A DNA stretch of 53,288 nucleotides from a virus. The notes under the pieces were generated by a model that saw only the letters and a program-made list of their open reading frames with translations, searched no databases and was not told the origin of the DNA. The stretch covers positions 1-53,288 of the IMG/VR virus record IMGVR_UViG_3300037507_002397; one strand, given 5' to 3'. Made by a program: the position numbers and the translations under genes. Positions 1-47,789 of the stretch are shown here, piece after piece (the first letter of the stretch is position 1; every line of letters starts with the position of its first letter).

Positions 1-804
1 CCGTGTCTCCAAAGCTCACCTTGAAGCTGCCCTCGACGATATTTCCCATCGTCACCATAGCCACAGGGCTGCGGGGCCGCTCGTATCGCACGCGAACGAT
101 ACCGCCCTCGATCATGGGCATCGCGCGCGCGGTCTGGCAGACGGACACCAGTGCGTCCCATGCGTTCGTGAACGTGTCGAAAACGCCGTTATAGGTGAAG
201 CGCGGCTCGACTAGGTACGCGGTTCCACTAAGGGCAGGCGTGACGACAGTATCCCAGAACTGGTTATCGGCCCACGGCGCCGTTCCGTAGGTATAGTTCA
301 GCAGAACCTTCCAGCCCGCTCCCGTGTTTGTTTTGGACACGATCTCGAAGCCCGAGATGTTAGCGTCGCTGATGTCAACCGAGAGGCCGGTGCCGGACTG
401 AGGAATGCCAGAAAATGCGATCCAGCGGCCTGGAGTCCAGTATGCAGGCGGCTCGGTGGCGGCCGCAGTTGATGCGTTATACCTGAAGTGAACCTCCAGT
501 CCGGGTGAACCGTCGTTGATCGCGCTTCCGTAAGAAAGATTGGCAATCGGATCTGGGTCCCCCAGAGTTTCGTCCATCGCCTGATCGTCGAAGCTGCGGC
601 CTGCCGGGACAAGTTCATCGCAGTAGTCGGCCCACGCCTTGAAGTCCTCGAGGTTGCAGCGCGAAAGCGGGAAGTCAATACCGCGGCCGTAGCGAGGATT
701 CGAGATCACGTCGAGCGCGATCCAAGCCGGGTTCTGCGACCACTGGTAGGTCACGCTGGTTCCGTCGTACACGGGCACGGGCACTCCCTTGACCAGCGCG
801 GTGA
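1..804. repeat. Left copy of imperfect terminal direct repeat (contig closure)
   Basis: This block aligns base for base, without indels, to 52485-53288. I count about 42 mismatches, all between 1 and 677; bases 678-804 are identical to 53162-53288, exactly 127 bases. Both copies lie inside the same tail-tip reading frame and most differences are silent. I read it as the overlap of a circular genome in which two alleles were assembled, not as a physical phage end. Confidence 0.9.
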
Positions 805-2920
805 TCGTCGGCGCGCTCGTATTGAGCTGCTCCGTTGCCTTGATCTTCATGCCCAGGATGGGCGTGTACGGGTACGCCAGCAGCGCGCTGTCCTTGGAGA
901 TAAGCTGCGAGAATACCGACTCGTCGGAGACGAAGTTGCTCGTGCTCTTGACGTTTCGCCGAAGCATCTCCACTCGATACTTGCCACGCTTTATTGTGTT
1001 GGATGATGTGGCGTAAACCTTGCCCGTCAGAACACCAACGCTAGAGCCGGAGACTCCCAATGAGTTGTTGCGTCCACTTGAGTCTGTCAATCCTGCACCG
1101 ATTGCAGAGTCAAAGTGATACAGGCAATACTGATCTACAGCGGGCTGAATAAAGAGACCATATCCTCCGCCATAGTGCTGAGCTATTTCAGACGAAGGAA
1201 GCAAGCGTGCAAGATAGACAAATTCATCCACAGTAAATTCGTCCATGTTGTTATTGTTGCCAAACTGGATGCGAGCCGCAGGGACAACAATGTTTACTGA
1301 TCCTTCGGTGAATCCATTAGATTTTACTTGGATGCCGTTTCTGTAAAACCTGATTCTGCTCTTGTTATCGAAATCTGTTCTCACGTAGCTGACGGCCACG
1401 TGCATCCATTCATCATAGACTCCAGAGGTAGGTGAAGTCGTAATGCCTAGAATGTAGGTCCCAATTTGTGTAGACAGAGTGACGCTCTCGCTCCAAGCAC
1501 CTCCCCCGTTGTATCCGCGAAAAACAAACTGGAGGCGATCGTAATAGCCAGTTCCTTGAATCTCTAGGCTGCGGTTCATCTCCAATATCCAGCCTGCACC
1601 CGTGGTCTGGTGCATGATACGGCGCGGGTTTGTGCCGTCGTTTGCCCACGGGATCTTTAGCCAGAATGAAACCGTCAGTTCAGTAGTGTTTGTTCCGGCG
1701 ACAATAGACCCGGGGAGGTTGGCGGGATTGGTTGTTGATCTCACATAAACCGTAGTAGCGGCTGTGTCCGGACTATTCAGAGCTTGTCCTAGAGTCGGAG
1801 CTACATAGGTTTGTGGATCTAAGAATAGACCGCTTGCTTGGTAGTTGTAGCTTTCCTGAATGGCGACGCTAACGTCATTTGTTGCAGTAAGCGGCCAGTA
1901 GACATAGCCATCGTTGTTGTCCCCGCCGCTTGTTATGGGAGATCCACCTGAGTCAAGCTCGATGTAACGAATTTGCGGCTTGAAGGCTGCGGTGACTACA
2001 GATCCGCTGTTGGTTATTGTGTAGAGGCCGGATGGAAAGTCTACAAGGCAGGACCAAGCATCCGCTTCTGCGGTCATGTCGATTGCTTTGCCGTAGCTAC
2101 TCCATACCGCAGCATTAGCCGTAGAATTGTATGGGTTTGCCGCAAGAGTAGCATTTATCTGGCTGTTGTCCGGAGAAGCAGTCTCAACTTGACCAAGTGT
2201 TAGGCCGACAGCGTATTCAGTGGATATCTGCTGAAAGCCAGGAATCGGTAGCTGCTCACTCGTCCCCATCCTAACCCATGCTTCGACGCCTCCGAAGTTG
2301 TCCGCGGTATTGCCTTCAATCTGAATACCAGTCGGAAGAGCGTTGGACGGATCATCAGACGAATGCGGAGAGCCGCTGTCCGTATCTTCGGTCTTGTCAC
2401 CGATGGCTGAAATCGGACCCTCTCCAAAGCCAAGAAGCGTATAGAGATCGTTCTCCCCTGTGTTTGTGCTGCTGGTTATGTACTCGTCTAGGACTTGCGG
2501 AGCGACGCGGATCTTGCCGTAGATTACCTGCTTAGGTTGACCCTCGAAGCGGTCATTACGCAATCCTGCCCATGCGTAAGTTCCCGAGCCTTCGTTTTCG
2601 TTTCGATTTTTGGGCTTGAGAAACTTTGCCAGCAGCTTGCCAATGACGAAGGATACAAGCGCGCCAGCAGCGACGGTCAACACAAAGTTTAGCACCGCGA
2701 CGGCAGGACCTTGAGGCCGCGTTGTCTCAAGGATCTCGTCACCATCCTCAAGGATTCTTTCCCAGTCATGAGTCGGCTCGCGGTTGACCGCAACCCATAG
2801 ACCGACGCGCTCCGTGTCGGTGATGCAATCACGCAGCCGCAGCCCGTCGACGTACTCGCGGTACTCGCGCTGCTCGTTTTGTGTACTGAACCAGATCGGA
2901 GTCCTGCGGATTGTAATCAT
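1..2920 (-). CDS. Tail-tip host-specificity protein (lambda gpJ-like), amino-terminal part with LamG-like insert; runs off left end
   Basis: The gene starts with ATG overlapping the stop of the K-like gene (ATGA) and is open to base 1. Residues about 73-98 form a hydrophobic helix, as seen near the start of many J-like proteins. A concanavalin/LamG-like domain occupies about residues 400-600, with DEWMHVAVSYV and IRFYRNGIQV motifs. The conserved J core begins near 800 (VPVPVYDGTSVTYQW, NPAWIALDV). Joined through the circular overlap to 52484-50452 the frame is preserved and the protein would be 1650 residues, in the size range of large J proteins. J sits at the tail tip and contacts the receptor. 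The LamG insert probably binds surface glycan. The last 226 codons here are an allelic version of those at the right end, with three amino-acid differences. Confidence 0.9.
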   Translation of the reverse strand, partial: MITIRRTPIWFSTQNEQREYREYVDGLRLRDCITDTERVGLWVAVNREPTHDWERILEDGDEILETTRPQGPAVAVLNFVLTVAAGALVSFVIGKLLAKFLKPKNRNENEGSGTYAWAGLRNDRFEGQPKQVIYGKIRVAPQVLDEYITSSTNTGENDLYTLLGFGEGPISAIGDKTEDTDSGSPHSSDDPSNALPTGIQIEGNTADNFGGVEAWVRMGTSEQLPIPGFQQISTEYAVGLTLGQVETASPDNSQINATLAANPYNSTANAAVWSSYGKAIDMTAEADAWSCLVDFPSGLYTITNSGSVVTAAFKPQIRYIELDSGGSPITSGGDNNDGYVYWPLTATNDVSVAIQESYNYQASGLFLDPQTYVAPTLGQALNSPDTAATTVYVRSTTNPANLPGSIVAGTNTTELTVSFWLKIPWANDGTNPRRIMHQTTGAGWILEMNRSLEIQGTGYYDRLQFVFRGYNGGGAWSESVTLSTQIGTYILGITTSPTSGVYDEWMHVAVSYVRTDFDNKSRIRFYRNGIQVKSNGFTEGSVNIVVPAARIQFGNNNNMDEFTVDEFVYLARLLPSSEIAQHYGGGYGLFIQPAVDQYCLYHFDSAIGAGLTDSSGRNNSLGVSGSSVGVLTGKVYATSSNTIKRGKYRVEMLRRNVKSTSNFVSDESVFSQLISKDSALLAYPYTPILGMKIKATEQLNTSAPTITALVKGVPVPVYDGTSVTYQWSQNPAWIALDVISNPRYGRGIDFPLSRCNLEDFKAWADYCDELVPAGRSFDDQAMDETLGDPDPIANLSYGSAINDGSPGLEVHFRYNASTAAATEPPAYWTPGRWIAFSGIPQSGTGLSVDISDANISGFEIVSKTNTGAGWKVLLNYTYGTAPWADNQFWDTVVTPALSGTAYLVEPRFTYNGVFDTFTNAWDALVSVCQTARAMPMIEGGIVRVRYERPRSPVAMVTMGNIVEGSFKVSFGDT

Positions 2921-3297
2921 GCGCCCTTGTACCTAAAGCAATAGGCTACACGACCGATGTTGCCTTGAAAGACGAGGTGGGTTCCGCGCAGACGGTTCGC
3001 CGTGAAAAAGTACCTGCCCACCGGATCGACCAGCACGGCGACCCACGGCTCAGGCTGATCGCCCACCACTACATCGCCCAGTCGGCTGGCGTTCTCGATC
3101 GGCTGCCAGTGACCATCCTTAGCGTCCAGAAGATAAAGGGCTGCGGCCTTGTCGAGCGGGAAAGCGGAATCCGGCATCTCGAGGAAGACTCGTGAGAGTG
3201 CCTGCCGAGCAGCCCAGAGGCAATCCACGCCGCTGTACGGATCCACGCCGCCGGCGCGATAGGGGAGACCGACTAGATCGAGCATCGACACCCTCAC
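2917..3297 (-). CDS. NlpC/P60-like tail protein (lambda gpK carboxyl-terminal-like), active site altered
   Basis: This 126-residue protein lies between the L-like and J-like genes, where lambda encodes gpK, whose NlpC/P60 domain is thought to act on peptidoglycan or in tail-tip assembly. It keeps the family layout: LVGLPYRAGG, then GVDCLWAARQAL with the presumed nucleophile Cys26, then GDVVV. The position normally held by the catalytic His before the VAVLVD strand is Trp85 (EPWVAVLVDP). It may therefore be inactive and serve a structural role, unless His107 substitutes. The GTG start overlaps the previous stop (GTGA) and the end overlaps the J start (ATGA). Confidence 0.8.
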   Translation of the reverse strand: MRVSMLDLVGLPYRAGGVDPYSGVDCLWAARQALSRVFLEMPDSAFPLDKAAALYLLDAKDGHWQPIENASRLGDVVVGDQPEPWVAVLVDPVGRYFFTANRLRGTHLVFQGNIGRVAYCFRYKGA

Positions 3298-3986
3298 TGG
3301 TTTCCCCTTTGAATTCCCGGGTAACCGCCGAAGCGCAAAGGATGTTGCGAGGTCAGGCTGCGGGCGGTTTCATCATCGCCGCGTTCTTCGCAGGCGGTAA
3401 GCGTGCGCGGGCAGAAAGTGAAGCCGCCGCCGACCGTGTTCGTGCCGCCGGTCACGATCTTGTATCCGCACTCGGCCGTGCCGAAGCGCCACTGGCAGTG
3501 GTTCGCTACCCAGCGGTTCCTCGGGAACGGTGCTTGCTGAAGATTGCGCGTGCCAAAAGTGAACGACGCTACGCGGTCATCCACCACGCAGCTCGTGATC
3601 TGGCCGACGAATTTGTACTCCGCGCCCGGATCCTCGAGCGCGTCCGCGCGCACCCAGCGCACCACAATCTCCTGGCCGACGAGACCCTTATAGGTATGCA
3701 GGGTAGTCATCAGCTCAAGGCTGACGTTGGCGACGTTGATGGTGCTTGTGGGCAGGTCGCCGCTCTGGCTTTGCCGATGGTCTCCAAACGCGATCGGGAA
3801 CGGATAGTAGACGAGAGGGTCGCCGGCCGTGCTTGTGCCCCGCTCGACCTGCGCGTGGTAGTTCGTCGCGCGAAAACGTGTCGGAGGGTCGGATGGTATT
3901 TTCACCGACACTAGCCAGATAAAAGGCGCGGAGTTTTCGAGCTGGTTCTTCGCTGAGTCAATGATTGTCGTCTGAAAGTTCTTCAT
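3294..3986 (-). CDS. Minor tail protein L-like (tail tip, predicted Fe-S)
   Basis: The 230-residue protein has the order expected of lambda gpL: an amino-terminal tail-tip beta domain and a carboxyl-terminal part with four cysteines, C164 (HCQWRFG), C173 (AECGY), C192 (FCPR) and C199 (ACEE). Lambda gpL binds a [4Fe-4S] cluster through four conserved cysteines, so the same is inferred here. The start codon overlaps the preceding gene's stop (TGATG), and the gene is followed by K- and J-like genes, completing an M-L-K-J series. It should form part of the initiator complex at the tail tip. Confidence 0.85.
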   Translation of the reverse strand: MKNFQTTIIDSAKNQLENSAPFIWLVSVKIPSDPPTRFRATNYHAQVERGTSTAGDPLVYYPFPIAFGDHRQSQSGDLPTSTINVANVSLELMTTLHTYKGLVGQEIVVRWVRADALEDPGAEYKFVGQITSCVVDDRVASFTFGTRNLQQAPFPRNRWVANHCQWRFGTAECGYKIVTGGTNTVGGGFTFCPRTLTACEERGDDETARSLTSQHPLRFGGYPGIQRGNQ

Positions 3987-6268
3987 CAGCAGAAGACCTC
4001 CTCAAGGTCGAAGCTGAACTGGCGCACGCTCGGGTTGGCAAGCACGACACCAAGCTCGTCCGTGGCAAAGCGCACTGAGACTGTCTCGCCCGTTTCCGGG
4101 TCGGCCCAGTCAAACGGGATCTCGGCCCCCTTGCGCGATGTCCAGAAAGCAAGCAGTGTCGTGCGCTCCGCATCCGTGCAGGCGTTCGCCGAGATACTCC
4201 AGCGCCGGCGCGGGCGCGTATGCCGCGCGCTCCTAGCGACGTACGCAGCCTCGTAGCGGTGCTCGAGTGCCGACCACTGCGATGACTCTCGAACGCCCCA
4301 GTCATAGGGAACGGTTAGAGTGCCCGTCTTTCCAGTGCATTCGGACGTCAGAGCGATAGAAGGCATATCCTCTTCAAGAATTGCCGGGTTTGTCGGATCG
4401 GTTGGATCTCCCGGGTCGGGCGCTACCCATAGGTCATTCCAGTAGTCAAGCAGTATTCGTTTACCGCTAGCACCCGTGCTTGCTTGGGGTATGTATCCTT
4501 CAACGACGCCAGATAGTGTCCTGGTAGACCTCGTATCAAGCAGATCAAGACCGTCGAATATGACGCCCTCTGGCACCGTAAACCCTGATGTCGCTGGAGT
4601 AAAATCTAGCTGGGTCGCGTTTTGATAGCCTCGTATCCTTACGTTTCCAGTTGCCGGCGTCTGTCCGATATTTTCTATGGCAAGCCGTGGTATCAGTGAC
4701 GTTGTGTTTCCGAAGGTAACGCCCCAACTTGCCAAAGACTGAAGCACTGTCCGAGCTAAGACCGTTGGAGAGGTTGGCGAGGCATAGTGCAAAATCTCAA
4801 AGCGATAATTTCCGCTGCTCTCAATAAACCGCAAAGCATATGCCTTGTTGAAGTGGTAGAGCGGAAGATTGGCACCTGCCGAGACGGGGTTGCCCCTAGC
4901 AAAAATAGCGATGTATCCGTTACTCGGCCATGTTCCGGTCGTCGTTACGACAAGACCCATGCTGCGATCGGATCCGTAGGGACTTTCGGACGGCTTGTTG
5001 TAAGCCATGCCATAAGTGTATGCGTAGACAGACACGTTCTCCGTGTACGGTGGACCACCTACGCTGCTTTTGAGGTCTCGCAGAGTTGCGTCAGGAGTTG
5101 TTGTTTGACCTCCATATAATGAGTTGTCACCAATCCAAAGAGACTGGAGTGATCGCCCGTTGACTTCATTGATGTCTTCCCAGCGCGACGACGGACTTCC
5201 GCCTGTATATAGGAGTCCTGGCACAGCACGCTCAAACTCATCTCTGAAAAGTATGTTTGAGCTAGTGTCCAAAATTTCGAAAGCGTGGCATATGTGAACG
5301 CTTCGGCTGGTCACATAGCCAGTGGGCGGATTGTTTCCAGTGGTATCGGGACCACCCATCAGAAACCCACAATACCCTTGGGTTGCGAGCTTCAGCGAAG
5401 GTGCACTGTCGGTATAGGTGAGAACAGTTGTATCTCCACTCCATGATCCGGCTGTGCCTCCAGCTCCCGGAATCCATCGCGCTACCTTGCACGTCAAGAC
5501 TGGATTCAGGCCAGAGTTCACTGCGGATATTGAAAGCCTTATGGGTCGCTGGAATCCTTGCGGGTCAAAGATAGAGCTGCTACCGGATGTCCAGTCGTTG
5601 ATCGTTTGCGCTGTCCCTGTTGCTAGAACGGCAACCGAACCTGGAAAGCCAGGACCCTGTGATACTTGGTTCCATCTGACCAAGAAGTAATTTACGACTT
5701 GACATGTAGTATCTGCTGATAGGAGAAAAGCATAGGCATCACATTGCTCCATGCCATCAGTACCAGCTGTCCACTGGTTCGACAACTGAGGAGATGCCAC
5801 GTTGTTCCGTATGACAACTCCAAATGTTTTGAAGCTCTGAGGGTTGATACCACCGCTCAGAGCTTTGATGCTAAAGACCGCTCTGGCTGTCCCATCAAGG
5901 ACAACTTGTTTGCCCCAGACGGCCATGAAGGCTTCCCAGTTACAGGATGCAAGCGGAGCAAAATTGTCTTGATTGGATCCAGAAAACGCTGCGACTCTTT
6001 TTCTTTTGGCGATCGGATTGTCCGCACTTACGGGTGTTAGCTGCGAATATCCGTCATGTAGCTCTCCAAATCCTCTTGATAGTTTGTATGTGTAACCTCC
6101 GAGAGAATATGGAGTACCTGTATCGGTTAGTGTTCCAGACCGCACACGTCCATAGCCGCTGTGTACGGAAAAAACTCCCGAGGTCAAAAAAGAATACGGG
6201 ATGTAGACAAACCCAAGCCCGCCTGAACCCCAGTTGAAATCGTCACTGCGCGGAAAGACCTGCACCAC
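3986..6268 (-). CDS. Minor tail protein: large lectin-like region fused to gpM/DUF2460-like carboxyl domain
   Basis: The 760-residue protein follows the tape measure directly (TAGTG overlap, GTG start), the place of lambda gpM. Only the last ~125 residues look like a gpM/DUF2460 domain: a WSISANACTDAERTTLLAFW stretch, then a FDW segment and an ending FSFDLEEV. The first ~620 residues are additional: beta-rich, Gly/Ser/Thr/Tyr-rich, with two similar concanavalin-like stretches (around VARWIPGAGGTAGSW and YRFEILHYASPTSPT). The extra part probably projects from the tail tip as an adhesin. A smaller gpM-like domain occurs alone at 12467-12802. The lectin assignment rests on composition and pattern only. 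Confidence 0.75.
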   Translation of the reverse strand: MVQVFPRSDDFNWGSGGLGFVYIPYSFLTSGVFSVHSGYGRVRSGTLTDTGTPYSLGGYTYKLSRGFGELHDGYSQLTPVSADNPIAKRKRVAAFSGSNQDNFAPLASCNWEAFMAVWGKQVVLDGTARAVFSIKALSGGINPQSFKTFGVVIRNNVASPQLSNQWTAGTDGMEQCDAYAFLLSADTTCQVVNYFLVRWNQVSQGPGFPGSVAVLATGTAQTINDWTSGSSSIFDPQGFQRPIRLSISAVNSGLNPVLTCKVARWIPGAGGTAGSWSGDTTVLTYTDSAPSLKLATQGYCGFLMGGPDTTGNNPPTGYVTSRSVHICHAFEILDTSSNILFRDEFERAVPGLLYTGGSPSSRWEDINEVNGRSLQSLWIGDNSLYGGQTTTPDATLRDLKSSVGGPPYTENVSVYAYTYGMAYNKPSESPYGSDRSMGLVVTTTGTWPSNGYIAIFARGNPVSAGANLPLYHFNKAYALRFIESSGNYRFEILHYASPTSPTVLARTVLQSLASWGVTFGNTTSLIPRLAIENIGQTPATGNVRIRGYQNATQLDFTPATSGFTVPEGVIFDGLDLLDTRSTRTLSGVVEGYIPQASTGASGKRILLDYWNDLWVAPDPGDPTDPTNPAILEEDMPSIALTSECTGKTGTLTVPYDWGVRESSQWSALEHRYEAAYVARSARHTRPRRRWSISANACTDAERTTLLAFWTSRKGAEIPFDWADPETGETVSVRFATDELGVVLANPSVRQFSFDLEEVFC

Positions 6269-9200
6269 TACCTAACCGCTCCTCTCACGGCGCCGAGTAG
6301 TGCGCGATCCCTCCCGGCGCTGATAGCCTGAGTGATCGCCGCCTGAATCTGCGGCATCTGTGCAAGCACGACATCGGCGGCCGTGCGCGGATCGAGGCTC
6401 CCGACGTTGAGGGTCAGGTTGACCGACTGCTGGACGGTTGTGCCGGCCTCCTGCGCGGGACGCTGTCCGCGCTTGAACTCCACTGGGATGCCGCGGTTGG
6501 GACCAGGCAGAGGAACGAATGCCTCGGCCCCCCCGCCCTCACCAAACACAGCGACCTGCGGCCGAGTGGCGACTCCGCCCATAGCGTACGAACGTACAGG
6601 AGATCCAGCCTTGAGAGCTGATCCCACTTGACGCCAGCGGCTCGCTTCCTCATTTCCCATCACTTGAGCCGCTTTCATCCGACCGGGAACGACGCCGCCC
6701 ATAGCCAGACCAAGTGGCGCGCCGTCAACACCGGGACCAATACCACCGCCACCACCTGAAGCAGCTCCACCGCTGAAGATGTTTAGAAATGCGCTCGCGG
6801 CTTTGAGTGCAAAAAGCCTGGCGATAGCCTGCTGGATCACTTGAACAATGGTTTGTCCAAAGTCACGAAGGCTTGCTTTTCCTTCTGCGATGTTATTGAA
6901 GAGACCTTCGAAAGCGTTTGAGAGCCCACTTGTTAGATCCTGTGCAAAGCTCTGTGCTTGCTTTTGTACGTCACTAAGCTCTGCTCTCAGATCGTCAATG
7001 CTAGAGCTGAATGCCTCGGCAAAAGTTATCTGGCTCTCAAAGTCTTGACGGATAGCAAGAGCCGAATCCCTCAAGACAGCCAGTTGCCGGTTGTATTCAG
7101 CGACTGAAATTTCGCCAGAGCTAAATGCCTGCTCTAGCACCCGGAGCTGTTCTGAGAGTGGACCGAGGGCACCAGTTACAAGCCGCTGGATGTCCTCTTG
7201 TGCGATCGTTATCGCTGGCGTATAGGCCAGCCGGAGCAGATTCTGGCGAGCAGCGGATCGCTCATCGGCCAGCCTTTGCGCGTCGGCTAATAGCTGATCT
7301 TGCGCCTCTTGAAAGGCCCTCGCATCTAGCTTGAGTTGCGCCTCTGCATCCGCTTGGATTTTGAGGACTGCTGCACGCTCTGATCTGAGAGCTTCGGCCG
7401 CAAGCTGTTGCGAGATTTCCGAAAAGATTGCACGTTCAGCAGTTCCACGCTGTCCACCAGAAAGCTCCTCTCGCTTCTGCGTAAGGTTGTCCAAGGCGCG
7501 CGTGAGGTTTTCAATCGCAAGACCCTCGGCAGCATAGGTGGCGATCAGCGCCTCGACGTTTGCGATCTGCCGGTCAAGCGCGAGAGCTTCGCGGTCCTTG
7601 GCTGGCAAAGTACTCTCGAGTATTGCCTGCGCGTTTTGGGCAGCGGCCGCTGCCTTGCCAAGCTCGACTGCGTAGAGCGCAAGAGCCGGTATGACTACCT
7701 GCTGCGCCGCTGCCTGCCGATTTGCAGACCGTTCCGATGCGGCCGCGATGTCTTCAAAGACAAGGGCGATTCGGTCACCTTGCACCTTGAGCTGGCCGAC
7801 CTGTCCATCGAAAACGCCGCCGAGCTGCGCGAGCCTCTCATTTGCCTTAGCAACGGCCGCTCCGACTGACTCAGGCAGCTTGTTGATGGCTGGTAGGGCG
7901 CGCTCGATTGCGCTAGACAAGGCAGACGACAGCGCCGCCGTGTCGATCTTCTGCCCGGCGCGACTAGCTGAATCGCGGAAGTTCTCGAAGATCGTGCCGA
8001 GCTGACCCTCGAGCAGCTTGATATCCGCCTCGTTAAGCTGAAGCAGCTTAGCCAGCGGAGACCCGGCAAGTCCGACTTTGACATCTTCACCAAGTCCGAG
8101 TCTGCCGACCTGCGCCGTGATGCCTTGGACAACTGATCCAACGGCTGAGTCTACTGACTGCGCGAAGCTAGATAGGTCGGCAACGACACGGACAACGGCC
8201 TCGGGATCTTCAGCAGCGATCGCGGCTTCGACTTCGCGCACGAAAGTGGCGGCCTGCTGTGAAACGCCGCGCGCCTTGAAGAACTCTACCTCGATGCCGC
8301 TCTGGCTGACGCTTTGTAGGAGGGCCGCATATTCACCGCGCGCTTTGCTGATATCACCTGTTAGGCCAGCGAAGACAAGCGCCCATGCGTTCGAAGCCTC
8401 GTTGAATACGCTGACCGCGCTATTGCTGATCTCGTTGAACGTCTTTTTCCAGTACCCTGCGGTGTTCTCTGCCGCGCGCTGGTTTTGAGTGGCGAAGTCC
8501 TGCGCGGCCTGAGATGTCCGCTCGATCTCCTTGCGGAAGTCCGCGGCCGATCCTTGCACCGCAGCAAAGACACCTTGAAGCGTGCGAGCTCCGCCGGGGA
8601 AAAGCTGCGCGAGAAGTTCGGGCTGGTTCCGCGTCTTGTCTGCAATGTCGGCAAGGATCTGTGCGAAGCCTTCGCCGTCGCGGCTTGCCGTCTGGAAGTT
8701 GACCCCGATACCCTCGAGGGCTTTCCGGGTAGCGTTGCCCTGCTCGCTGAAAATCTGGAGCAGCCCACCAATGGCTCGAGTCGCATCGTTGAGGCCGACG
8801 CCTTGGTTTTTGATGCTGACAATCAGCGCCGAGACATCGGACAGGCTAAGTCCAAACTGCCGCGCGAGAGGGCCAGCCGCTTGCAGAGCGTTGGCAAACT
8901 GGTCAATCGGAACACCGGCCCTGTCCGCGCTGGTCGCAAGGATCGCCGTGACCTTGGACGCCTCCTGGATGCGGAGCTGGAAAGCTCCGAGCACCCCGTC
9001 GAGTGCTTGAACGGCGCTCGCCACCGGGCCGAAGCCAACCTTGGAAAGCAGGGTCGCCTGCTTCAATAGATCGTTGACCGCCTCCCGGCTGCGCGCGGTC
9101 GTGTTTTGGAATATCGACGACAAGCCTGCCGCGATTTCCTCGGCCGCCACATTGGTCTCGCTCGACAGCCGCAGCAGATCCTCACGGAAGCCCTGCAACG

Positions 9201-9678
9201 CGCCCGCGCCAACGCGCCCCAGCGCCGGCTTGAGTGCTTGGTCAATCTGCTTGCTCTTCTCGACGACAGCGCCGAGGGCTTCTGAAAGCCCCACAACGGC
9301 AGCCACCGTAGCTGCCAGCGGGCCGGCGGCGGTTGCGATGGCTTGCAGCGGGCCGACATTCAAGCCGAGATTTCTTGCGACATCGCCTGCCGCGCCGGCA
9401 AGCTCGCGCTGGTCTACGGATGCTTGTTTGGTGGCCTTGCTGAATCGTTCCGTTTCCTCGCGCGCCTTGCGCTGTGCCTGTGCTTCTCCAACAAGGGCGG
9501 CCGTAGTTTCTTTGAGTGCTCCGGAAACAGCCTGCTGCGATTCCTCGAGCGTTCTTGTGCGAGCGTTCGTTGCCTCGATTTCCCGGGCGAGCTTATCGAC
9601 CTGCACCTCGATGGCCTTGAGCGGCCCGGTCATCAGGTCTTGCAGCCGTGCGATGATTTCAAGGTTCTGGTCAGCCAT
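6268..9678 (-). CDS. Tail tape measure protein
   Basis: At 1136 residues this is the second longest gene and sits between the tail chaperones and the tail-tip genes, the standard tape-measure position. The sequence is mostly helical and coiled-coil with many Ala, Gln and Glu, has a hydrophobic stretch near residue 110-130 (AIATAAGPLAATVAAVVG), and ends in a Gly-rich hydrophobic region, all typical of the family. The length sets tail length; at about 1.5 angstrom per residue this would suggest a tail of roughly 170 nm. The start overlaps the previous stop (TAATG). Confidence 0.95.
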   Translation of the reverse strand: MADQNLEIIARLQDLMTGPLKAIEVQVDKLAREIEATNARTRTLEESQQAVSGALKETTAALVGEAQAQRKAREETERFSKATKQASVDQRELAGAAGDVARNLGLNVGPLQAIATAAGPLAATVAAVVGLSEALGAVVEKSKQIDQALKPALGRVGAGALQGFREDLLRLSSETNVAAEEIAAGLSSIFQNTTARSREAVNDLLKQATLLSKVGFGPVASAVQALDGVLGAFQLRIQEASKVTAILATSADRAGVPIDQFANALQAAGPLARQFGLSLSDVSALIVSIKNQGVGLNDATRAIGGLLQIFSEQGNATRKALEGIGVNFQTASRDGEGFAQILADIADKTRNQPELLAQLFPGGARTLQGVFAAVQGSAADFRKEIERTSQAAQDFATQNQRAAENTAGYWKKTFNEISNSAVSVFNEASNAWALVFAGLTGDISKARGEYAALLQSVSQSGIEVEFFKARGVSQQAATFVREVEAAIAAEDPEAVVRVVADLSSFAQSVDSAVGSVVQGITAQVGRLGLGEDVKVGLAGSPLAKLLQLNEADIKLLEGQLGTIFENFRDSASRAGQKIDTAALSSALSSAIERALPAINKLPESVGAAVAKANERLAQLGGVFDGQVGQLKVQGDRIALVFEDIAAASERSANRQAAAQQVVIPALALYAVELGKAAAAAQNAQAILESTLPAKDREALALDRQIANVEALIATYAAEGLAIENLTRALDNLTQKREELSGGQRGTAERAIFSEISQQLAAEALRSERAAVLKIQADAEAQLKLDARAFQEAQDQLLADAQRLADERSAARQNLLRLAYTPAITIAQEDIQRLVTGALGPLSEQLRVLEQAFSSGEISVAEYNRQLAVLRDSALAIRQDFESQITFAEAFSSSIDDLRAELSDVQKQAQSFAQDLTSGLSNAFEGLFNNIAEGKASLRDFGQTIVQVIQQAIARLFALKAASAFLNIFSGGAASGGGGGIGPGVDGAPLGLAMGGVVPGRMKAAQVMGNEEASRWRQVGSALKAGSPVRSYAMGGVATRPQVAVFGEGGGAEAFVPLPGPNRGIPVEFKRGQRPAQEAGTTVQQSVNLTLNVGSLDPRTAADVVLAQMPQIQAAITQAISAGRDRALLGAVRGAVR

Positions 9679-10061
9679 TAGCTCTTGCCCGCTTTCTCCG
9701 CGTTCGCACGCTCAATTTCAGCGCGCTCATGCAGCGCGATCTCGATCAGTCGCATGATACGCGATGGCTGGTCACCGTAGCCCCCTGCCGTGGGAAGGAA
9801 GCCAGCATCGACGGCGCAGGCAAGCCGTAGGATCTCGCTCGCAGCCGTACTGCTTTGGGACTTTGGGCAGCGGTAGTGCTGAACCTGTCCGCGGTTCTTG
9901 CATTCCTCGCAGCCGGAACCCATGCACTGCGAGCAGGTCGAGGTGAAGATCGGCCACCGCGTCGGCGCATCGCACCCCCACTGCTCGCGTAGCTTAGGCT
10001 CGCGGCATCGTGGGCATTTGGCGCTTTGCGTGCCCCAAGTCGCGTGCGCGGCGGCGATCAC
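9678..10061 (-). CDS. Second tail assembly chaperone-like protein with cysteine-rich zinc-ribbon
   Basis: The 127-residue product lies between the G-like chaperone and the tape measure. It has eight cysteines in CPRC, CSQC, GCEEC and YRC clusters, suggesting two zinc knuckles, followed by a helical end (GFLPTAGGYGDQPSRIM) that resembles the carboxyl part of many second tail chaperones. Its frame is -1 relative to the upstream chaperone and it overlaps that gene's stop (GTGA). It may be made by re-initiation at GTG or as a -1 frameshift fusion on the G run ahead of the stop. The tape-measure-chaperone role is inferred from position. Confidence 0.7.
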   Translation of the reverse strand: MIAAAHATWGTQSAKCPRCREPKLREQWGCDAPTRWPIFTSTCSQCMGSGCEECKNRGQVQHYRCPKSQSSTAASEILRLACAVDAGFLPTAGGYGDQPSRIMRLIEIALHERAEIERANAEKAGKS

Positions 10062-10420
10062 TCCCCCGCGGTTTTGCGAGTGACAGCCTCGAACCGATGC
10101 ACCTCGCTGACGATTTCGAGGATCACGGCGAACGGGATCAGTCGGAGGTCTTCATCCGTAGCCCGACCATTGAGGCCGGCGAACTTGACCTCATTACCCT
10201 CGCTGTCCTTGAAATTGCGCCATCCGACGAGCGACAGGCGCGCCATCTGGATGGCCTTTTTCGCCCAGCCTGAATCCTCTGCCGAGTAGGTATCGGCGAG
10301 CTCTGCCGCGTCGAAGACATCGAGAGGCCGGAGCAGCCATGTAGTCTGCTGCTCCGGCGGTTGGGCCGCGTCGCTGGGCGCGATGAACTCGCGTACAGCG
10401 GAGCGAAATGCGATTGCCAT
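10058..10420 (-). CDS. Tail assembly chaperone (lambda gpG-like)
   Basis: This small 120-residue, largely helical protein lies directly downstream of the tail-tube gene and before the cysteine-rich chaperone and tape measure. That is the conserved place of gpG-type chaperones, which coat the tape measure until the tube assembles. The leader contains AGAAAGG upstream of ATG, the extended Shine-Dalgarno form used repeatedly in this genome. The reading frame ends in a GCG GGG GAG TGA context that could allow a -1 slip into the next gene. Identification is by position and size; sequence similarity was not recognised. Confidence 0.7.
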   Translation of the reverse strand: MAIAFRSAVREFIAPSDAAQPPEQQTTWLLRPLDVFDAAELADTYSAEDSGWAKKAIQMARLSLVGWRNFKDSEGNEVKFAGLNGRATDEDLRLIPFAVILEIVSEVHRFEAVTRKTAGE

Positions 10421-10448
10421 AGGGAGCCTTTCTGTTGCCTAGAGTGAA

Positions 10449-11993
10449 TCAGAGAATCGTATAGATCAGCACAAGCTCATTGTCAGACGAGCTTGCGCCA
10501 CCGCTCTGAGAGCCGCCGTGAAGCACGCCGGAGAGCTGGCGAGTAGCGATGCCGTTTCGATCTCCCGTGGTCGCGCCAGTCCACGAAATTCCGGGCATCC
10601 GGAACTCGAACGAGTTTTGCGCGGCCGATCCGACAAAGAAGTTTGCACGGCTCGGCGTGTTGTCCGTGAACTGCTCCAGGTAGTCCCAAGTGCCCTCAGT
10701 AACCAGCTCCGGGTCAATCGAGATAGTCGGAGTGCGACCGCTCAAGACCGTCTCTTGAATTCCGGCGGCATCGGCCATGCATTCGCGAAACCCGATCTCG
10801 TTAGCCATCGCAATATCAATAGAAGCGATGCAGGGACCGTAGCGGTTCGCCCACGACGTGCCAGACTTCATATGAACCAAGTCAGCATCTAGGAGCACCG
10901 GAGGAACTTGAGACGTATAGGTGATACCTGTGACGTTGCCCGCATCCTGAGACGATGCGCCGGAGTTTTCCGACAGGCCGCCTTGGAACTCAAAGGTCAT
11001 AATCATCGGCTCGCCGATACGACCGCTGAAGCTGACCGTCCCGCGCGCGGCCTTGATCGCTTCGCGCACTGCGTCCTTGCTCATGCCGATCGAAAGCGTG
11101 GGGATCTGAAATTGAGCAGCTCCGCCAGTAGTCCCGATACCCGCGTATTGAGTGCCCGTTCCGCCTACGCCGCTCCAGATCGCTTCGCTATTTTGGAAGC
11201 TGCCAGAGATGCGGCGATAGTAGATAAGCGTTGCAGCCGTCGGGCCGCTGCTGTCGGCATAATAGAACTGACCGACAGCATTCGAGGTTGCACCGTAAAA
11301 CACGCCGCCTGCTGTGATGTTCGCCAGGAGACCACTGGCGTCCGTACGAATGACCGAAAGCGGATAGGACCACGGGAACCAAGCCACGCCTGCGGGAGTT
11401 GAGTAGGCAGTGCCAGTAATGCCGCCAGCTACGGCGCTAGGAGCTGCTGCGGTACTTGCGCCGCTAGTCCCACCGCTGAGAGTATGTCCAGCGGTAGTGG
11501 TGAAAGCTGTGATAGTCGTAGCACCGGGATCGAATCCGAGGTGATTTTCCTGCGCGACCCACAGGGTAGTCTGCCCGTCATATGTCGTGCCGACGACCAT
11601 GCCCTTGGCACCGCTAGTCGCCTGAGTGACGATCTCCCCATGCTGGAAAGGACCGGCGGTGATCGCGCCGATGGTCAGCTTGGCGAGCTTCTCTTGACGA
11701 AAACCGCAAGCTCGCAGCGGAAGTCCCCAGGCGGGGACGTTGGTCGCACCGGTGTCCCCAGTCAACTCCATCGAGAACCTGACGGTGCCCGTCTTAGTTC
11801 CGGTCAGGGATTGAAGCGGCGTGAGCGTCTCGCGCTTGATGTTGCGCTCAAAGACATTGACCGAAAAATCTAGTGAAGGGTCAATGACCAGATACTTGGA
11901 GTTGTTGGCAGTAAAAAGATTTGCGAAGGATGTAGCCGTCGCCTCGGTCGCTTCCTGGGCGATGCTGATTTGCTGAAGTCGTGAGAGGGCCAT
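10449..11993 (-). CDS. Major tail tube protein with large inserted domain
   Basis: A tail-tube protein is expected here, between the tail-completion gene and the tail chaperones. The amino end (MALSRLQQISIAQEATEATA) and the carboxyl end (QLSGVLHGGSQSGG, ELVLIYTIL) resemble siphovirus tube proteins, but at 514 residues it is about twice the usual length. The middle, roughly residues 105-330, is Gly/Thr/Ser-rich and contains GxxxTxATSGAKGMVVG-like strands repeated loosely. This is likely a surface beta domain displayed along the tail. The upstream leader has an AGGAACC-type purine run. Confidence 0.8.
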   Translation of the reverse strand: MALSRLQQISIAQEATEATATSFANLFTANNSKYLVIDPSLDFSVNVFERNIKRETLTPLQSLTGTKTGTVRFSMELTGDTGATNVPAWGLPLRACGFRQEKLAKLTIGAITAGPFQHGEIVTQATSGAKGMVVGTTYDGQTTLWVAQENHLGFDPGATTITAFTTTAGHTLSGGTSGASTAAAPSAVAGGITGTAYSTPAGVAWFPWSYPLSVIRTDASGLLANITAGGVFYGATSNAVGQFYYADSSGPTAATLIYYRRISGSFQNSEAIWSGVGGTGTQYAGIGTTGGAAQFQIPTLSIGMSKDAVREAIKAARGTVSFSGRIGEPMIMTFEFQGGLSENSGASSQDAGNVTGITYTSQVPPVLLDADLVHMKSGTSWANRYGPCIASIDIAMANEIGFRECMADAAGIQETVLSGRTPTISIDPELVTEGTWDYLEQFTDNTPSRANFFVGSAAQNSFEFRMPGISWTGATTGDRNGIATRQLSGVLHGGSQSGGASSSDNELVLIYTIL

Positions 11994-12002
11994 AGAAGGT
12001 TC

Positions 12003-18254: not shown

Positions 18255-21071
18255 CTAGGGTTCCGGGACGATCGCCATCAGGAGACAGCGGCAGTTGATA
18301 ACTTCCTCGGCCGGCGCTCGATCGTCGCCGGGGTAGGCAAGCTGGGGCTTGAAGTCTTCGCCGAGAGGGCGGATCTGGCCGTCGAGTTCCTGATGGGTCT
18401 CGCGCACGTCGTCGTCACGCTCGCTGATCCATTGAACCTGCTCCACGCCTTCCTCGCGCATCTGTAGCTCGCGCGCGGTGTTCGTGGCCTTGGTAATCTC
18501 CGTGCGTGCGATCACGCCAGCGCGGCCTGTCTTGTCCGCGAAGACTTGCTTCAGCGATCCCTCAAGCTCCGGCAGAACTTCCTCGATGCGCTGGCGCATT
18601 TCGACAAAGCTCGACGGCTGGCCGAGCTCTTTGTCCAGGGTATTCTTGACGCGCTTGGCAACGGTCGAATGCACACCCTCGACGACCTTGATCTTCTGGG
18701 TCTCGAGCGCGCGCACGATTCGCGGATCGGACATCGGCAGGCTGATCCCGCCCAGCTCTAGCGCCTGATCTTTCAGAGCGGCCTTGAACGCTTGGCTCAA
18801 AACATCGTCAAGAGCCTTGTTTAGGTTTTCCAGCCATTCTTTCGGGTCGGGTACAAGTGCCGAAACAAACGGGTTCGGCGTTGCCTCGTCGGCCTTGGTG
18901 ACTAGCTCACTGAAGTCCTTGCCAGTTTCTGCGAATCGCCGGAGCTTGCGGAGCAATTCGCGCTCATAGCCGGCCAGCCACTTGCCGACGTTCTTCTGCG
19001 CCCTCTTTTCAAAAGGCAGCGAGACATCGCGCAAGAAACGACGGAAGTATTCCGCGCGGGCTTCGCGGGTTTCGAGCGGGCCCAGCTTGATCGACGGCTC
19101 CATGCCGGCAGCAGACTTCTCGCGCTCCGCATCAATGCGGGCGACAAGATCCTCTGCGTAGGCTTGAGCGCGGGACGCGCTGGTAGAGCTTGATCCTCCG
19201 CCCCAGAGCAGCATCGAGACCAAGCCGGGTGTGATTTCGTCACCCTGCACGGCCTCCAGATCAACCTTATGCCGCGCAATCCAGGGGCCGATCTTCCGCC
19301 ACTTAGCCTCGGTGACCTCACCGGCCGCCATCTTGCGAGCGTCCTCCACCGTCTGAGGCTTGAGTCCTTGGCCGCTTTCGCCAGCTTCGTGTAGCTTGAT
19401 GCCGCGGCGCGCGCTCGCGCGCATATAGGCCGGTGGTGCAAGGTCGATAGCCTTGACCTCATGCGCTGCAATATCCCGGCGCCGCATAATGAGGAAGGCT
19501 GGATCGACGGCCGCGGCCACCGGTGCTGGCGCAGGCGCTGGCGCTTCGTTTACGCCGCCCACAATGCGCCGAGCTTCCTCCTCGTCGATAAACGGGAAGG
19601 CAGCGAGGATCGTAGTCACCGCACCTTCGACGGTCAGCAGACCCTCGGAGACTGCGCGGAGGATGTCGAGTAGGCTGGAGACTTGCGCCCCGTTCAGGGC
19701 TTGATCGGCAACAACGGCCGTCTGATCCTCGGCCGGATCGGGCTCATCCTCGGTCTCTATTTCCTCGGACTCGTTCTCCTCTTCGTCCTCGTCCATTTCC
19801 TCGGACGCGAACACGGAGCCGTCGATGTCCAGCTTCAGCGCCTTGACCAGCTCGCCCAGATCCACGCCGGTAGCCAGCGAAATCTCGGCGGCCACCTTGA
19901 GGCGCGCGCTCTGATCGTTCCGCAGAGCCTCGATGCCAGCGAAGTCGAACCCGAAGACATACTGCCGGAAGCGCGGGTCAGCCATCCGCGGGATAAGCTG
20001 CGCGTTGATCTGCGCCTCGACGGTCTTCAGGTAGCCGACGACCGCGATCCAGAACTGCCGCCACGCCTCCTGGAGGTTGGAGTAAGTCGAAGCGTCCGGA
20101 GAAATTAGATGCACCGGGACTTCAAAGGTCGACGCCACGACATCGCGCGACCAAGTGAGTAGGTCGATGTACTGCATCCGATCCGGCGTGGCCGGGTTCG
20201 GCACAATCTTCGGGCCGCCGCCTAGGATCTTCAGTCCACCCGCGGTCTCCGCGTCCTGCGTCGCAGCATCGAGGTCGGACTGGAAGGACTCGAGCGCGTC
20301 GCGCTGGATGTCGTGGTCGTAGGTCACAAACGCGCCCGGGCCGCCGGAGCGCATCTGCGCTTCCTGTTGGCGCTCGGCTTGGAAGGCGATCTGAAGCTGC
20401 CGGTTGGCGACCTCTGCCGCGCCAAGGCCGCGGATCGGGTCGGCCGGATCGTAGTCCCGGAACTGAACAACGCTTGACCAAGGTGCGCGCAGCCGCTGAT
20501 TTCCTGCGGTCTGGAAGTACCAAAACGCGGGACGGCCCATGTCGTCTGGGTCATACTCAACCGCATCGCCGTTGACCGGCATGATCGAAAAAGGCAGCGT
20601 GATCGGCCCGTCAAATGGCGCCCAATTGCCATCGGTAGACTTGGGCCCGAACAAGAACCAGAAGCTCTCTCCTGATAGCTTGCGGTGGACAACATCAGCC
20701 TCGGCCAGTTGTGCCCAAGTCATATCCCGGTTCGGTCTCAGCAACTGCTGGAGAAAAGGATCGGACTCTGGGACTTCTTCGGCGTTTGCGCCCGGGCCGT
20801 TCCACATCATAGGGCGCACGCTTGCCGATGCGCGCGACCATAGCCGGCAGCAGAGATTGACAATCCATGACTGCTCGAACGGCTGCGATAGTTCAAAAGC
20901 TCCGGCCATCGACGGCCGAACTGCGAATCCGTTAGATTGAAAAAGAGTTTCTAGGCTTTTGGCTTTCCCATTGAATCTAGAAGCTCCGGCCATAGTGCCA
21001 AGATGCTCAAGATGATAGGATCCCTCACGGGCTGAAAAGGGCTTGACGCGGTTACGCCTAGACAGACTCAC
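18255..21071 (-). CDS. Portal protein fused to ARHxVD/LWGG domain and MuF-like carboxyl domain
   Basis: This 938-residue protein joins three parts. The first ~420 residues are an HK97-type portal (SWIVNLCCRLWSR, SFWFLFGP, GLGAAEVANRQLQIAF, STYSNLQEAWRQFW). A very acidic linker follows (DEDEEENESEEIETEDEPD). The middle contains a RRGIKLHE to IARHKVDLE to MLLWGGG pattern seen in other phage head proteins. The last ~95 residues match the Mu F head-morphogenesis domain (ARTEITKATN, ERDDDVRETHQ, INCRCLL). The listed start is GTG; ATG at 20993 (MAGASRF) is an alternative, and no strong ribosome site decides. It forms the DNA-entry ring. Confidence 0.9.
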   Translation of the reverse strand: MSLSRRNRVKPFSAREGSYHLEHLGTMAGASRFNGKAKSLETLFQSNGFAVRPSMAGAFELSQPFEQSWIVNLCCRLWSRASASVRPMMWNGPGANAEEVPESDPFLQQLLRPNRDMTWAQLAEADVVHRKLSGESFWFLFGPKSTDGNWAPFDGPITLPFSIMPVNGDAVEYDPDDMGRPAFWYFQTAGNQRLRAPWSSVVQFRDYDPADPIRGLGAAEVANRQLQIAFQAERQQEAQMRSGGPGAFVTYDHDIQRDALESFQSDLDAATQDAETAGGLKILGGGPKIVPNPATPDRMQYIDLLTWSRDVVASTFEVPVHLISPDASTYSNLQEAWRQFWIAVVGYLKTVEAQINAQLIPRMADPRFRQYVFGFDFAGIEALRNDQSARLKVAAEISLATGVDLGELVKALKLDIDGSVFASEEMDEDEEENESEEIETEDEPDPAEDQTAVVADQALNGAQVSSLLDILRAVSEGLLTVEGAVTTILAAFPFIDEEEARRIVGGVNEAPAPAPAPVAAAVDPAFLIMRRRDIAAHEVKAIDLAPPAYMRASARRGIKLHEAGESGQGLKPQTVEDARKMAAGEVTEAKWRKIGPWIARHKVDLEAVQGDEITPGLVSMLLWGGGSSSTSASRAQAYAEDLVARIDAEREKSAAGMEPSIKLGPLETREARAEYFRRFLRDVSLPFEKRAQKNVGKWLAGYERELLRKLRRFAETGKDFSELVTKADEATPNPFVSALVPDPKEWLENLNKALDDVLSQAFKAALKDQALELGGISLPMSDPRIVRALETQKIKVVEGVHSTVAKRVKNTLDKELGQPSSFVEMRQRIEEVLPELEGSLKQVFADKTGRAGVIARTEITKATNTARELQMREEGVEQVQWISERDDDVRETHQELDGQIRPLGEDFKPQLAYPGDDRAPAEEVINCRCLLMAIVPEP

Positions 21072-21340: not shown

Positions 21341-22935
21341 ATACGCATGACGCGAATCGTGGGCCGCGATGCGCTCTTGCGCGCGAGTCCTAGGATGCAA
21401 GCGTCCAAGTCATCCGGCGATCGGCCGTAGCGTTCGCGTATCTCGTCTTTCGATTCTCCAAGCTCGGCCATGCTGCCACGCGCAGCTTCTCGGAAGTTGT
21501 ACGAGTACCAGCACGCCTGCCGCCAGAGTTCCGCGTATTTGCGCGGAATGGCAGCGCGCTGCTCCTCGAGCAGTCGGCGAAGCGTCCAGTGCATCTCGCC
21601 GCGCATGTTTCGGAAGAGCGTTTGCCCGGTCAGCTGCTTCCAGCCGTACCGAGGACTTGCGCCGAAGTCTACCGCATCGACTTGGTGGCCTGTCTGCTTT
21701 AGCCGGTCGGCAACTCCCTTGCCTAAGCCGGTCGCGTCTACATGGACATGGGCCGCAGGAACCGGCCCGGAAGCATCACCCCATGCAGACATAAGTTCTA
21801 GGATGACACCAACCGTCGCCATCGTGTCTGGAGAACGCCACTCATGCCGCGCCGCGATTGTGTTTCCAATCCAAAGATAGGCCACGCTCGGGTCGCTTCC
21901 ACCGCCGCCGATGTCTACGCCGATGTGCCGATCCTCGCCTTCCTGCGGGAGATCGGCGCAGGACTCGAGCAGTGCCCGCGGGATCAGCGCGCGATCCAGA
22001 TCGACCGTAGCAGGAAGGCCATAGACGAATACACGCGTGAACGCTGAGTCGATGCCGTGACTCTTGACCATCGCGCGCCGCCAGTCGGCAGGCTGTATTT
22101 CCTCTGGGATCCCGTGAAAGCACTTGTCCGCGGCGTGCGGCTCCCAGTTCGGATTCGGCAGCTCTTCGCCGGCGACATGGATCCGATGCCAGCTCGATCC
22201 GCGCCGCCACCAGCGCGCGGTCGGGTGGTCGCTGTTCTCGTCGAATGTCGGGTTACACTGCGCGAGGACATACACATTCTTGCCAGCCATCGAGCCCTCG
22301 AGGCGCTCAAGGATTTCCTTGTCGATCTCCGCGGCTTCGTCCAGCACGATCAGCAGGCGGTGGGCCGTGCGCTCGATCTTGTACAGCGCCTCGCTCGCGG
22401 TCGCCAGCTTGAGCTCGCCGGTGTCCTCCGCATCACGCGCAAGGTCTACGCCGGCGTGGAATCCTTGAACCGTGCCGGCATCGCCGGCCGAGAAGCCAAG
22501 CGCGTACCACTCTGGCGCAATCTCCCATTTGAACCCATGCGGTTTGCCTGGAAGCGACTGCCGCGCATTGGCATGGAACGCGCGGATCTTCTGCCATAGA
22601 CCGTACTCGACCTGGCGCTGACTGCCCGATGTCGTCAGCACCGTGGTCGGGCCGGTACACATCATCGCCACCACGATCTCCGCGGCCGTGTGCGTCTTCG
22701 AGTTCTTCCGCGGGCCGCAGACCATCACGAAGCGATGCTGCATGAGCGCGCGCTGGAGATACTTCTGGAACTCCCATTGCTTGTGGCCCAGCACCTCGGT
22801 GCAGAAGCGCGGCAGGTCGCCGTCGTACTTCGCGTGCTGGGCAGCCGAAGATTCTGGGAAGGCCGCGCGCTTCGCGTCCTGCCAGATCGAGCGGACAAGC
22901 TCTAGCTCGTCATCACCGAGGCTCGGTCTCTGCAT
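21337..22935 (-). CDS. terL: Terminase large subunit
   Basis: The 532-residue packaging motor has an ATPase half with a Walker A-like CGPRKNSKTHTAA near residue 75 and Walker B LLIVLDEAAEI near 195. The nuclease half has the acidic residues in HIGVDIGGGGSDPS, HVHVDATGLGKG and SPDDLDACILGL. It pumps DNA through the portal and cuts concatemers. The ATG overlaps the end of the small subunit by 23 bases. Since the contig closes as a circle, headful packaging is plausible but not shown by this sequence. Confidence 0.96.
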   Translation of the reverse strand: MQRPSLGDDELELVRSIWQDAKRAAFPESSAAQHAKYDGDLPRFCTEVLGHKQWEFQKYLQRALMQHRFVMVCGPRKNSKTHTAAEIVVAMMCTGPTTVLTTSGSQRQVEYGLWQKIRAFHANARQSLPGKPHGFKWEIAPEWYALGFSAGDAGTVQGFHAGVDLARDAEDTGELKLATASEALYKIERTAHRLLIVLDEAAEIDKEILERLEGSMAGKNVYVLAQCNPTFDENSDHPTARWWRRGSSWHRIHVAGEELPNPNWEPHAADKCFHGIPEEIQPADWRRAMVKSHGIDSAFTRVFVYGLPATVDLDRALIPRALLESCADLPQEGEDRHIGVDIGGGGSDPSVAYLWIGNTIAARHEWRSPDTMATVGVILELMSAWGDASGPVPAAHVHVDATGLGKGVADRLKQTGHQVDAVDFGASPRYGWKQLTGQTLFRNMRGEMHWTLRRLLEEQRAAIPRKYAELWRQACWYSYNFREAARGSMAELGESKDEIRERYGRSPDDLDACILGLARKSASRPTIRVMRI

Positions 22936-23605
22936 CCTCGACTACCTCTGCCGGCTCAACATCGTGACCCTGCGCGCTGAGTTTCAGCACCTGCACCTCC
23001 ATGCGGTTGACCACATTCTGCGCGATGGCCGGCGGGCATTCTTCCTTGACGATCTCGAGCACGCGTGCGATCAGCACCCCGACTTGCTGCATATTCAGGT
23101 TCTGCCGGCGCTGCATCCTGATCTGCCAGACGGCCTCGACACGCTTGGCGAGCCGTTCAGCTTGGATCGATAGCTCGGAGATCGCGCGATCCTCTAAAGC
23201 CCCATCGCGGAGCAGGATGCCGAGATCGCGCATGGCAATATTCTGTGCTTCGGCATCACCAGAAGCGTTAGCCTCCGACAGCGCCTCCCACATGTCCTTG
23301 GCGCGCTTGCGGAAGTCCGGCGTGTCGGCCTGCGCGACGCGCTCACCAGTCCGCTGCAAGCAAGCCTCGAGCAGCGCGATCGGCTCCTGCAAGTCAAGCA
23401 ATGATGCGTCTTGAATCGCTTGTTGGTATGCCTCCGACAGCGCGGTTGCCTTGAGCGCCTTAGCGTAGCGGCCGTGCTTGAGCCTTCCGCCTGATCCTCG
23501 CGCCCCTCCGTGCATATAACAGACCTTTTTTCCGATGCAGGGCGGCCGACCGCAACGAACGCCAGCGCGATTGGTCGCGTGGCACGTAACTTTGAAATGA
23601 CTCAC
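22913..23605 (-). CDS. Terminase small subunit-like protein with zinc-knuckle
   Basis: Start chosen at GTG 23605, overlapping the previous stop (GTGA); this gives 230 residues. The first ~45 residues contain a cysteine/histidine cluster (CHATNRAGVRCG, IGKKVCYMHGG) and a GSGGRLKHGRYAKAL basic segment typical of the HGG-type small terminases and related phage DNA-binding proteins. A long helical region follows. It directly precedes terL, supporting DNA recognition during packaging. The name is inferred from motif and position. Confidence 0.75.
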   Translation of the reverse strand: MSHFKVTCHATNRAGVRCGRPPCIGKKVCYMHGGARGSGGRLKHGRYAKALKATALSEAYQQAIQDASLLDLQEPIALLEACLQRTGERVAQADTPDFRKRAKDMWEALSEANASGDAEAQNIAMRDLGILLRDGALEDRAISELSIQAERLAKRVEAVWQIRMQRRQNLNMQQVGVLIARVLEIVKEECPPAIAQNVVNRMEVQVLKLSAQGHDVEPAEVVEDAETEPR

Positions 23606-23829
23606 GCCTTTGCTTCCTGTGTTTTGATCTCTGCCCTTGCCAGCTTGTAGTGCATTGCCCACTCCGGCTCGCGCCAGCTTGGGTGCGCTAGTAAAACATC
23701 CCGCATCCGTCCGGGTGCGACCTGAACGACCCGGCATAGCAGCGGCAGCCGGCCGTATTTGTGCGGATTGTTTGGACGGTAGTAGACACGTTCGCCGGGT
23801 CGAACCCAGTCGGGAATGGACGCATTCAT
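23602..23829 (-). CDS. Small hypothetical protein
   Basis: The 75-residue product is overlapped by its neighbours at both ends (ATGA, GTGA), indicating translational coupling with the terminase genes. It begins with WVRPGERVYYRPNNPHKYGR, a small beta-barrel-like pattern, followed by a Trp-rich stretch and a helical end. No family is recognised. Confidence 0.7.
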   Translation of the reverse strand: MNASIPDWVRPGERVYYRPNNPHKYGRLPLLCRVVQVAPGRMRDVLLAHPSWREPEWAMHYKLARAEIKTQEAKA

Positions 23830-38280: not shown

Positions 38281-38489
38281 GTAATAATGAAAAATCCATG
38301 CCGTCCCAACGTAAGCCCCAATCTGCCTTTACGCGGCGCACCGGCTACATCTTTGTGATGGTCGCTGGCTGCGGCATCGCGGCAGTAGCGGGTCCAATGG
38401 ACTCGTGGCTGACGAATGCTCTGCTCTTCGCGGTGCTTGTCCAGGCCGAGCGGATCGTGGACCGCATGGACAAGAGGGGTGGCGCGTGA
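38277..38489 (+). CDS. Small membrane protein
   Basis: The 70-residue product has a basic, polar amino end and two hydrophobic segments: GYIFVMVAGCGIAAVAG and WLTNALLFAVLV. The size and topology would allow a holin, but position away from lysis genes and the short helices make this uncertain. It overlaps the repeat-protein start by GTGA. Confidence 0.6.
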   Translation: MSNNEKSMPSQRKPQSAFTRRTGYIFVMVAGCGIAAVAGPMDSWLTNALLFAVLVQAERIVDRMDKRGGA

Positions 38490-38920
38490 GCACGTTTGAC
38501 TTTCAGGACGGCAACGGTCCCGTCGCTGCTCACCAACACCCCAACGGTGGCGGGTGGGTAGCCAGCACAGCGTCTGTGGCACCTACGGCGTATGTAGGTC
38601 CGTACGCTCAGGTGTACGGCAACGCTCGGGTGTTCGGTAGCGCTCAGGTGTACGGCAACGCTCGGGTGTTCGGTAGCGCTCGGGTGTACGGCAGCGCTAG
38701 GGTGTTTGGCGAGGCTCAGGTGTTTGGCGACGCTCTGGTGTCCGGCAACGCTCGGGTGTACGACACCGCTCAGGTGTACGACACCGCTTGGGTGTCCGAC
38801 ACCGCTTGGGTGTCCGACACCGCTCGGGTGTACGGCAACGCTCGGGTGTACGGCAACGCTCTGGTGTCCGGCAACGCTCGGGTGTCTGGCGAGGCTCGGG
38901 TGACGGGAGACGCACGATGA
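38486..38920 (+). CDS. Hexapeptide-repeat left-handed beta-helix protein
   Basis: GTG 38486 overlaps the previous stop and gives 144 residues. After a short amino end the protein consists of about 19 hexapeptides of the type (R/Q)V(Y/F)GNA, starting SVAPTA. This gives a left-handed beta helix like that of hexapeptide acyltransferases or carbonic anhydrases, but no catalytic insertion is seen. In phages such proteins are of unknown function. The DNA is a near-identical 18-base tandem repeat, so copy number may vary. Confidence 0.85.
   Translation: MSTFDFQDGNGPVAAHQHPNGGGWVASTASVAPTAYVGPYAQVYGNARVFGSAQVYGNARVFGSARVYGSARVFGEAQVFGDALVSGNARVYDTAQVYDTAWVSDTAWVSDTARVYGNARVYGNALVSGNARVSGEARVTGDAR
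38609..38914 (+). repeat. 18-bp tandem repeats encoding hexapeptides
   Basis: Seventeen in-frame 18-base units of the type CGGGTGTACGGCAACGCT, with stretches nearly identical at the nucleotide level. This suggests recent unit duplication or slippage rather than ancient divergence. Confidence 0.85.
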
Positions 38921-39204
38921 GTTCCACGCCGGATCTTGACCGCGCGCTCAAAATCGCCCGTGCAGCGGGTATGGGGTCGGCCGCTTGGGATCGAGCGTGC
39001 GACGAGCTTCGCGCCATGCGAGAGCTACTCAGCGGCCAGACGCTTTACGATGCCCGGCAAGCGACCCTCATGGAGATAGCCAGCTACTGCGAGCAGCAGG
39101 CTCAGGATCGGCCCGCAGACTCTGCCGCGCTTCATGCCGTGGCTGCCGAGTGCTTCCGCCGGCATTCCCACGCTGCCGCGCGGGCGAAGACCAGCGGGGC
39201 ATAA
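38917..39204 (+). CDS. Small hypothetical protein
   Basis: The 95-residue helical product starts with ATG overlapping the repeat gene's stop (ATGA). It is Ala-rich, with a SSTPDLDRALKIARAAG start and a MEIASYCEQQAQD helix. The pattern is that of small phage accessory proteins. No family recognised. Confidence 0.65.
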   Translation: MSSTPDLDRALKIARAAGMGSAAWDRACDELRAMRELLSGQTLYDARQATLMEIASYCEQQAQDRPADSAALHAVAAECFRRHSHAAARAKTSGA

Positions 39205-45315: not shown

Positions 45316-45476
45316 AGCAATGTCTTCAGCTGCGCCAACGTGGCCTGAACTTCAGAAATCATCACATCGGCTGACTCTACTTGGTCGATGTCTCCAAGCG
45401 CTTCATACGATGACTTGATCTGCTCCAGGTGAGCGATCCTCTTTTCTAGCATGGCAATGAGATATTGAATGTTCAC
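45312..45476 (-). CDS. 54-residue coiled-coil protein
   Basis: GTG 45476 overlaps the stop of the propeller fibre (TAGTG), and the end overlaps the next ATG. The product (MNIQYLIAMLEKRIAHLEQI, then ...DIDQVESADVMISEVQATLAQLKTLL) is two amphipathic helices, probably an antiparallel or oligomeric coil. It may be a fibre chaperone or trimerisation piece. Confidence 0.65.
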   Translation of the reverse strand: MNIQYLIAMLEKRIAHLEQIKSSYEALGDIDQVESADVMISEVQATLAQLKTLL

Positions 45477-47787: not shown

Positions 47788-47789
47788 GA

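Follow-up and report, generated by a model that had tools for sequence, protein, structure and literature searches.

Overlapping contig ends within a tail-tip gene very probably close a 52,484-base siphophage genome and leave a second-strain allele over

The window, a virus record of the IMG/VR type that was analysed over its full length of 53,288 nucleotides, begins and ends within a tail-tip gene. Its two ends carry two parts of one J-type tail-tip protein, both encoded on the minus strand and having 267 codons in common. The features of the two ends are as follows.

1 to 677, no strand: allele A, a stretch of the middle of the J gene, probably a second strain's version and a dead-end branch outside the 52,484-base loop; 42 gapless mismatches to 52485-53161, with 324-677 found at 100% in the contig L003
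2 to 2920, minus strand: N-terminal 973 residues of the J-type tail-tip protein, running off the contig start; phrog_31 positions 130-371, 432-578 and 580-649
678 to 804, no strand: first copy of the 127-mer X, a putative assembly-graph vertex; identical to 53162-53288, and the contig L004 terminates with it
50452 to 53286, minus strand: C-terminal 944 residues of the J-type tail-tip protein, running off the contig end; phrog_31 positions 496-578 and 570-1008; PF13550
52485 to 53161, no strand: allele B, the same stretch of J, probably the loop-closing version; joined frame intact, 1650 aa
53162 to 53288, no strand: second copy of X, at the contig's last base; the sole repeated 127-mer

The profile of phrog_31 (central tail fibre J) matched the two halves with E = 6e-55 and 8e-65, respectively, and within the window it was found at the two ends only. 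The parts of the profile matched by the N- and C-terminal halves are complementary, and when the halves were joined over the overlap they gave a single 1650-codon frame with one stop, at the end of the frame. PF13550 lies in the C-terminal half, and solved J proteins were also matched (PDB 8iyk, E = 1.6e-16). The preliminary description, made from the sequence, had named the end gene a tail-tip gene, and the phrog_31 matches in both halves support its identity as J. Its likeness to the lambda-type J proteins consists of these profile matches, one open frame and a position after the tape measure and L genes. It differs from them in that identity to the J-like proteins of GenBank phages reaches just ~23-24% in the best stretch, and in that residues ~258-641 of the N-terminal half fall between the profile matches. 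These residues, encoded at ~997-2149 on the minus strand, had no family match and appear to form one or more extra domains.

Direct comparison within the window showed that 678-804 and 53162-53288 are identical at 127 of 127 bases, which confirms to the base the exact overlap reported earlier. Because bases 677 and 53161 are unlike and 53288 is the final base of the contig, the match cannot be extended either way and its maximal length is exactly 127. X is the one repeated 127-mer of the window, and there are no repeated 128-mers. Aligned as a whole, the two ends match without gaps over 804 bases at 95% identity (1261 bits), far beyond a chance match.

The metaSPAdes assemblies of JGI metagenomes use k = 33, 55, 77, 99 and 127 (PMC10604447), and metaSPAdes contigs broken at branches have ends of maxK length in common (PMC10914622). 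The overlap length equals the largest k, 127, of a list that is the JGI pipeline's and may not be the window's own. The window thus resembles the maxK end overlaps described with COBRA at repeats and strain-variation breakpoints (PMC10914622), in that its overlap is exactly 127 bases, lies at a within-population branch and consists of a word that also ends a contig of another assembly. Unlike a plain maxK overlap, it begins after a 677-base second-strain branch and not at the first base, and a plain end-to-end circularity test would therefore miss the window. An end overlap of maxK length accompanied by mostly silent strain alleles is of an already known, ordinary kind.

Positions 1-677 and 52485-53161 differ by 42 mismatches and no indels. 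Most of the differences are silent, with 36 of the 42 at third codon positions, and three amino-acid changes were found: Ala/Gly (GCG/GGG), Gly/Leu (GGA/TTA) and Ser/Thr (AGT/ACT). This recount agrees with the preliminary description, which gave about 42 gapless differences and three amino-acid changes. The mismatches show some clustering: identical runs within the 677 bases reach 117 (p ~0.01). Comparison of A with B gave dS ~0.22, dN ~0.010 and dN/dS 0.046, from 267 codons and a single allele pair; on that basis, the purifying selection that had been proposed for the two alleles fits a ratio of ~0.05. Mostly silent differences of this sort between the J genes of strains, kept so by purifying selection, would be ordinary biology.

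The contig L004 is 100% identical to 678-7448, and its terminus coincides with X to the base, so that X is met as a branch word in another assembly of the population. Both L004 and the contig L003 come from metagenomes numbered differently from the window's, and their samples may not be independent of it. If independence is assumed, the termination of L004 at X would be the strongest independent sign that X is a k-mer branch vertex. The earlier view that the k = 127 overlap is an assembler trace gains support from the same contig.

We propose that the window very probably came out of a de Bruijn assembler, run to a final k of 127, from one siphophage genome that closes on itself in a 52,484-base loop, and that the tip of a second strain was left over. 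X would be a vertex within J with two inward paths, namely allele B, which would close the ring, and the 677-base dead end formed by allele A, which would stem from a second, coexisting strain. The path written by the assembler would then run through branch A, X, one full turn, allele B and X again. Since the assembler would have circled the ring once and halted at the X common to two strains, the end overlap would be a trace of assembly with no biological repeat behind it.

The distant relative L030, whose J is ~27% identical to the window J pieces, provides a comparison across the join. On one strand, it carries in order the tape measure, L, J and a relative of the window gene at 49246-50115, and its J is a single intact 1351-aa frame, the sole phrog_31 gene of that record. 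When the window is read round the ring, its gene order is the same. This order, with one J, would support the joining of the window ends and, together with the intact joined frame, favors the loop length of 52,484 given previously. It also bears on the alternative of a longer genome in which the two contig ends lie in separate, paralogous J genes that have the 127-mer in common. Both ends do sit in J, and a word common to two gene copies would break a contig likewise. However, the two end pieces complement each other and together yield an unbroken J, a lone J gene is present in L030, and a full siphophage gene set is already inside the window: the scan of the larger frames found terminase, portal, protease, capsid, tail terminator, tape measure, L, J, RecE-like and RecT-like genes. 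Moreover, strain alleles better fit a DNA identity of 95% with almost all changes silent. We therefore regard paralogous J genes as very unlikely.

Branch A could also be an assembly chimaera, allele A adjoining position 678 onward in no real phage, as dead-end branches are where chimaeras arise. Against this, L003, from another metagenome, matches 324-4557 at 100% without interruption, and allele A is therefore joined to the same flank there. This makes a chimaera highly improbable, and it supports the earlier assignment of the contig start to a second strain's allele. L003 ends at window position 324, so that the A/B differences at 321-322 lie just two bases beyond it; the end may mark a further point in J where strains branch.

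In some phages, the genome ends carry direct repeats hundreds of bases long, and the ends of the window might be such a physical repeat of a linear genome, partly diverged. This reading can be practically dismissed: replication keeps real terminal repeats identical, whereas here 677 of the 804 bases are 6% diverged (42 mismatches over 804 bases), the identical portion is exactly k, the repeat lies inside J and would split this essential gene in two, and L003 runs on through the same place at 100% identity.

With the ring-closing assembly preferred, the record is very likely a complete 52,484-base phage genome that a simple end-repeat test would miss, and 1-677 should be counted neither as genome length nor as a second gene copy. 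The closed ring is a property of the assembly and is by itself silent on whether virion DNA is permuted, cohesive-ended or otherwise packaged.

Other relatives add to the picture of the population. L007 and L021 are parts of one 34-kb sister contig. In the stretches read, 20 sites separate it from the window, 11 of them crowded into the 99 bases of 23558-23656 and six into 47418-47502, and elsewhere long stretches are identical. The differences of this contig are confined to the patches at 23558-23656 and 47171-47895, where many of the changes alter amino acids. L023 has no differences from the window over ~6 kb, yet 97 in 21520-23558. Because these contigs show patchy differences on an identical backbone, alleles A and B of J may be a further case of such patches, brought in from elsewhere. 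We tentatively suggest, as a possibility somewhat short of even, that coexisting strains have a near-identical backbone interrupted by short stretches of divergence, including one in the tail-tip gene, which homologous recombination brought in, possibly through the RecE/RecT-like genes that the phage itself encodes. A report on Rad52-like recombinases of phages describes them as permitting relaxed recombination (PMC3945230), and we infer that the RecE/RecT-like genes of the window could be tied to patch import.

A search with 1-12000 for near-identical GenBank phages gave none, and among close viral contigs none was found to span the join. Likewise, no host genome carrying a J relative was found by searching with peptide patterns. 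The contigs L008-L020, which carry relatives of the fibre gene at 45476-47341, have only that gene and its neighbours in common with the window and no J match to it, and they are therefore uninformative on the join. In two phages that are 54-60% related, the contigs likewise terminate within J (L005, end 7011; L028, end 4916); from these ends, J may often break assemblies in this phage group.

Two other features of the window were observed. At 18255-21071 on the minus strand, a frame of 938 aa matches portal proteins over the first half of its length and MuF-type head morphogenesis proteins at its end; it could represent a fusion of portal and MuF, or else a pair left unseparated. At 38405-38952 on the plus strand, at least 15 tandem 18-base units lie inside a frame and encode a six-residue repeat (e.g. 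GNARVY/GSAQVF), which by eye resembles that of a hexapeptide-repeat (left-handed beta-helix) protein.
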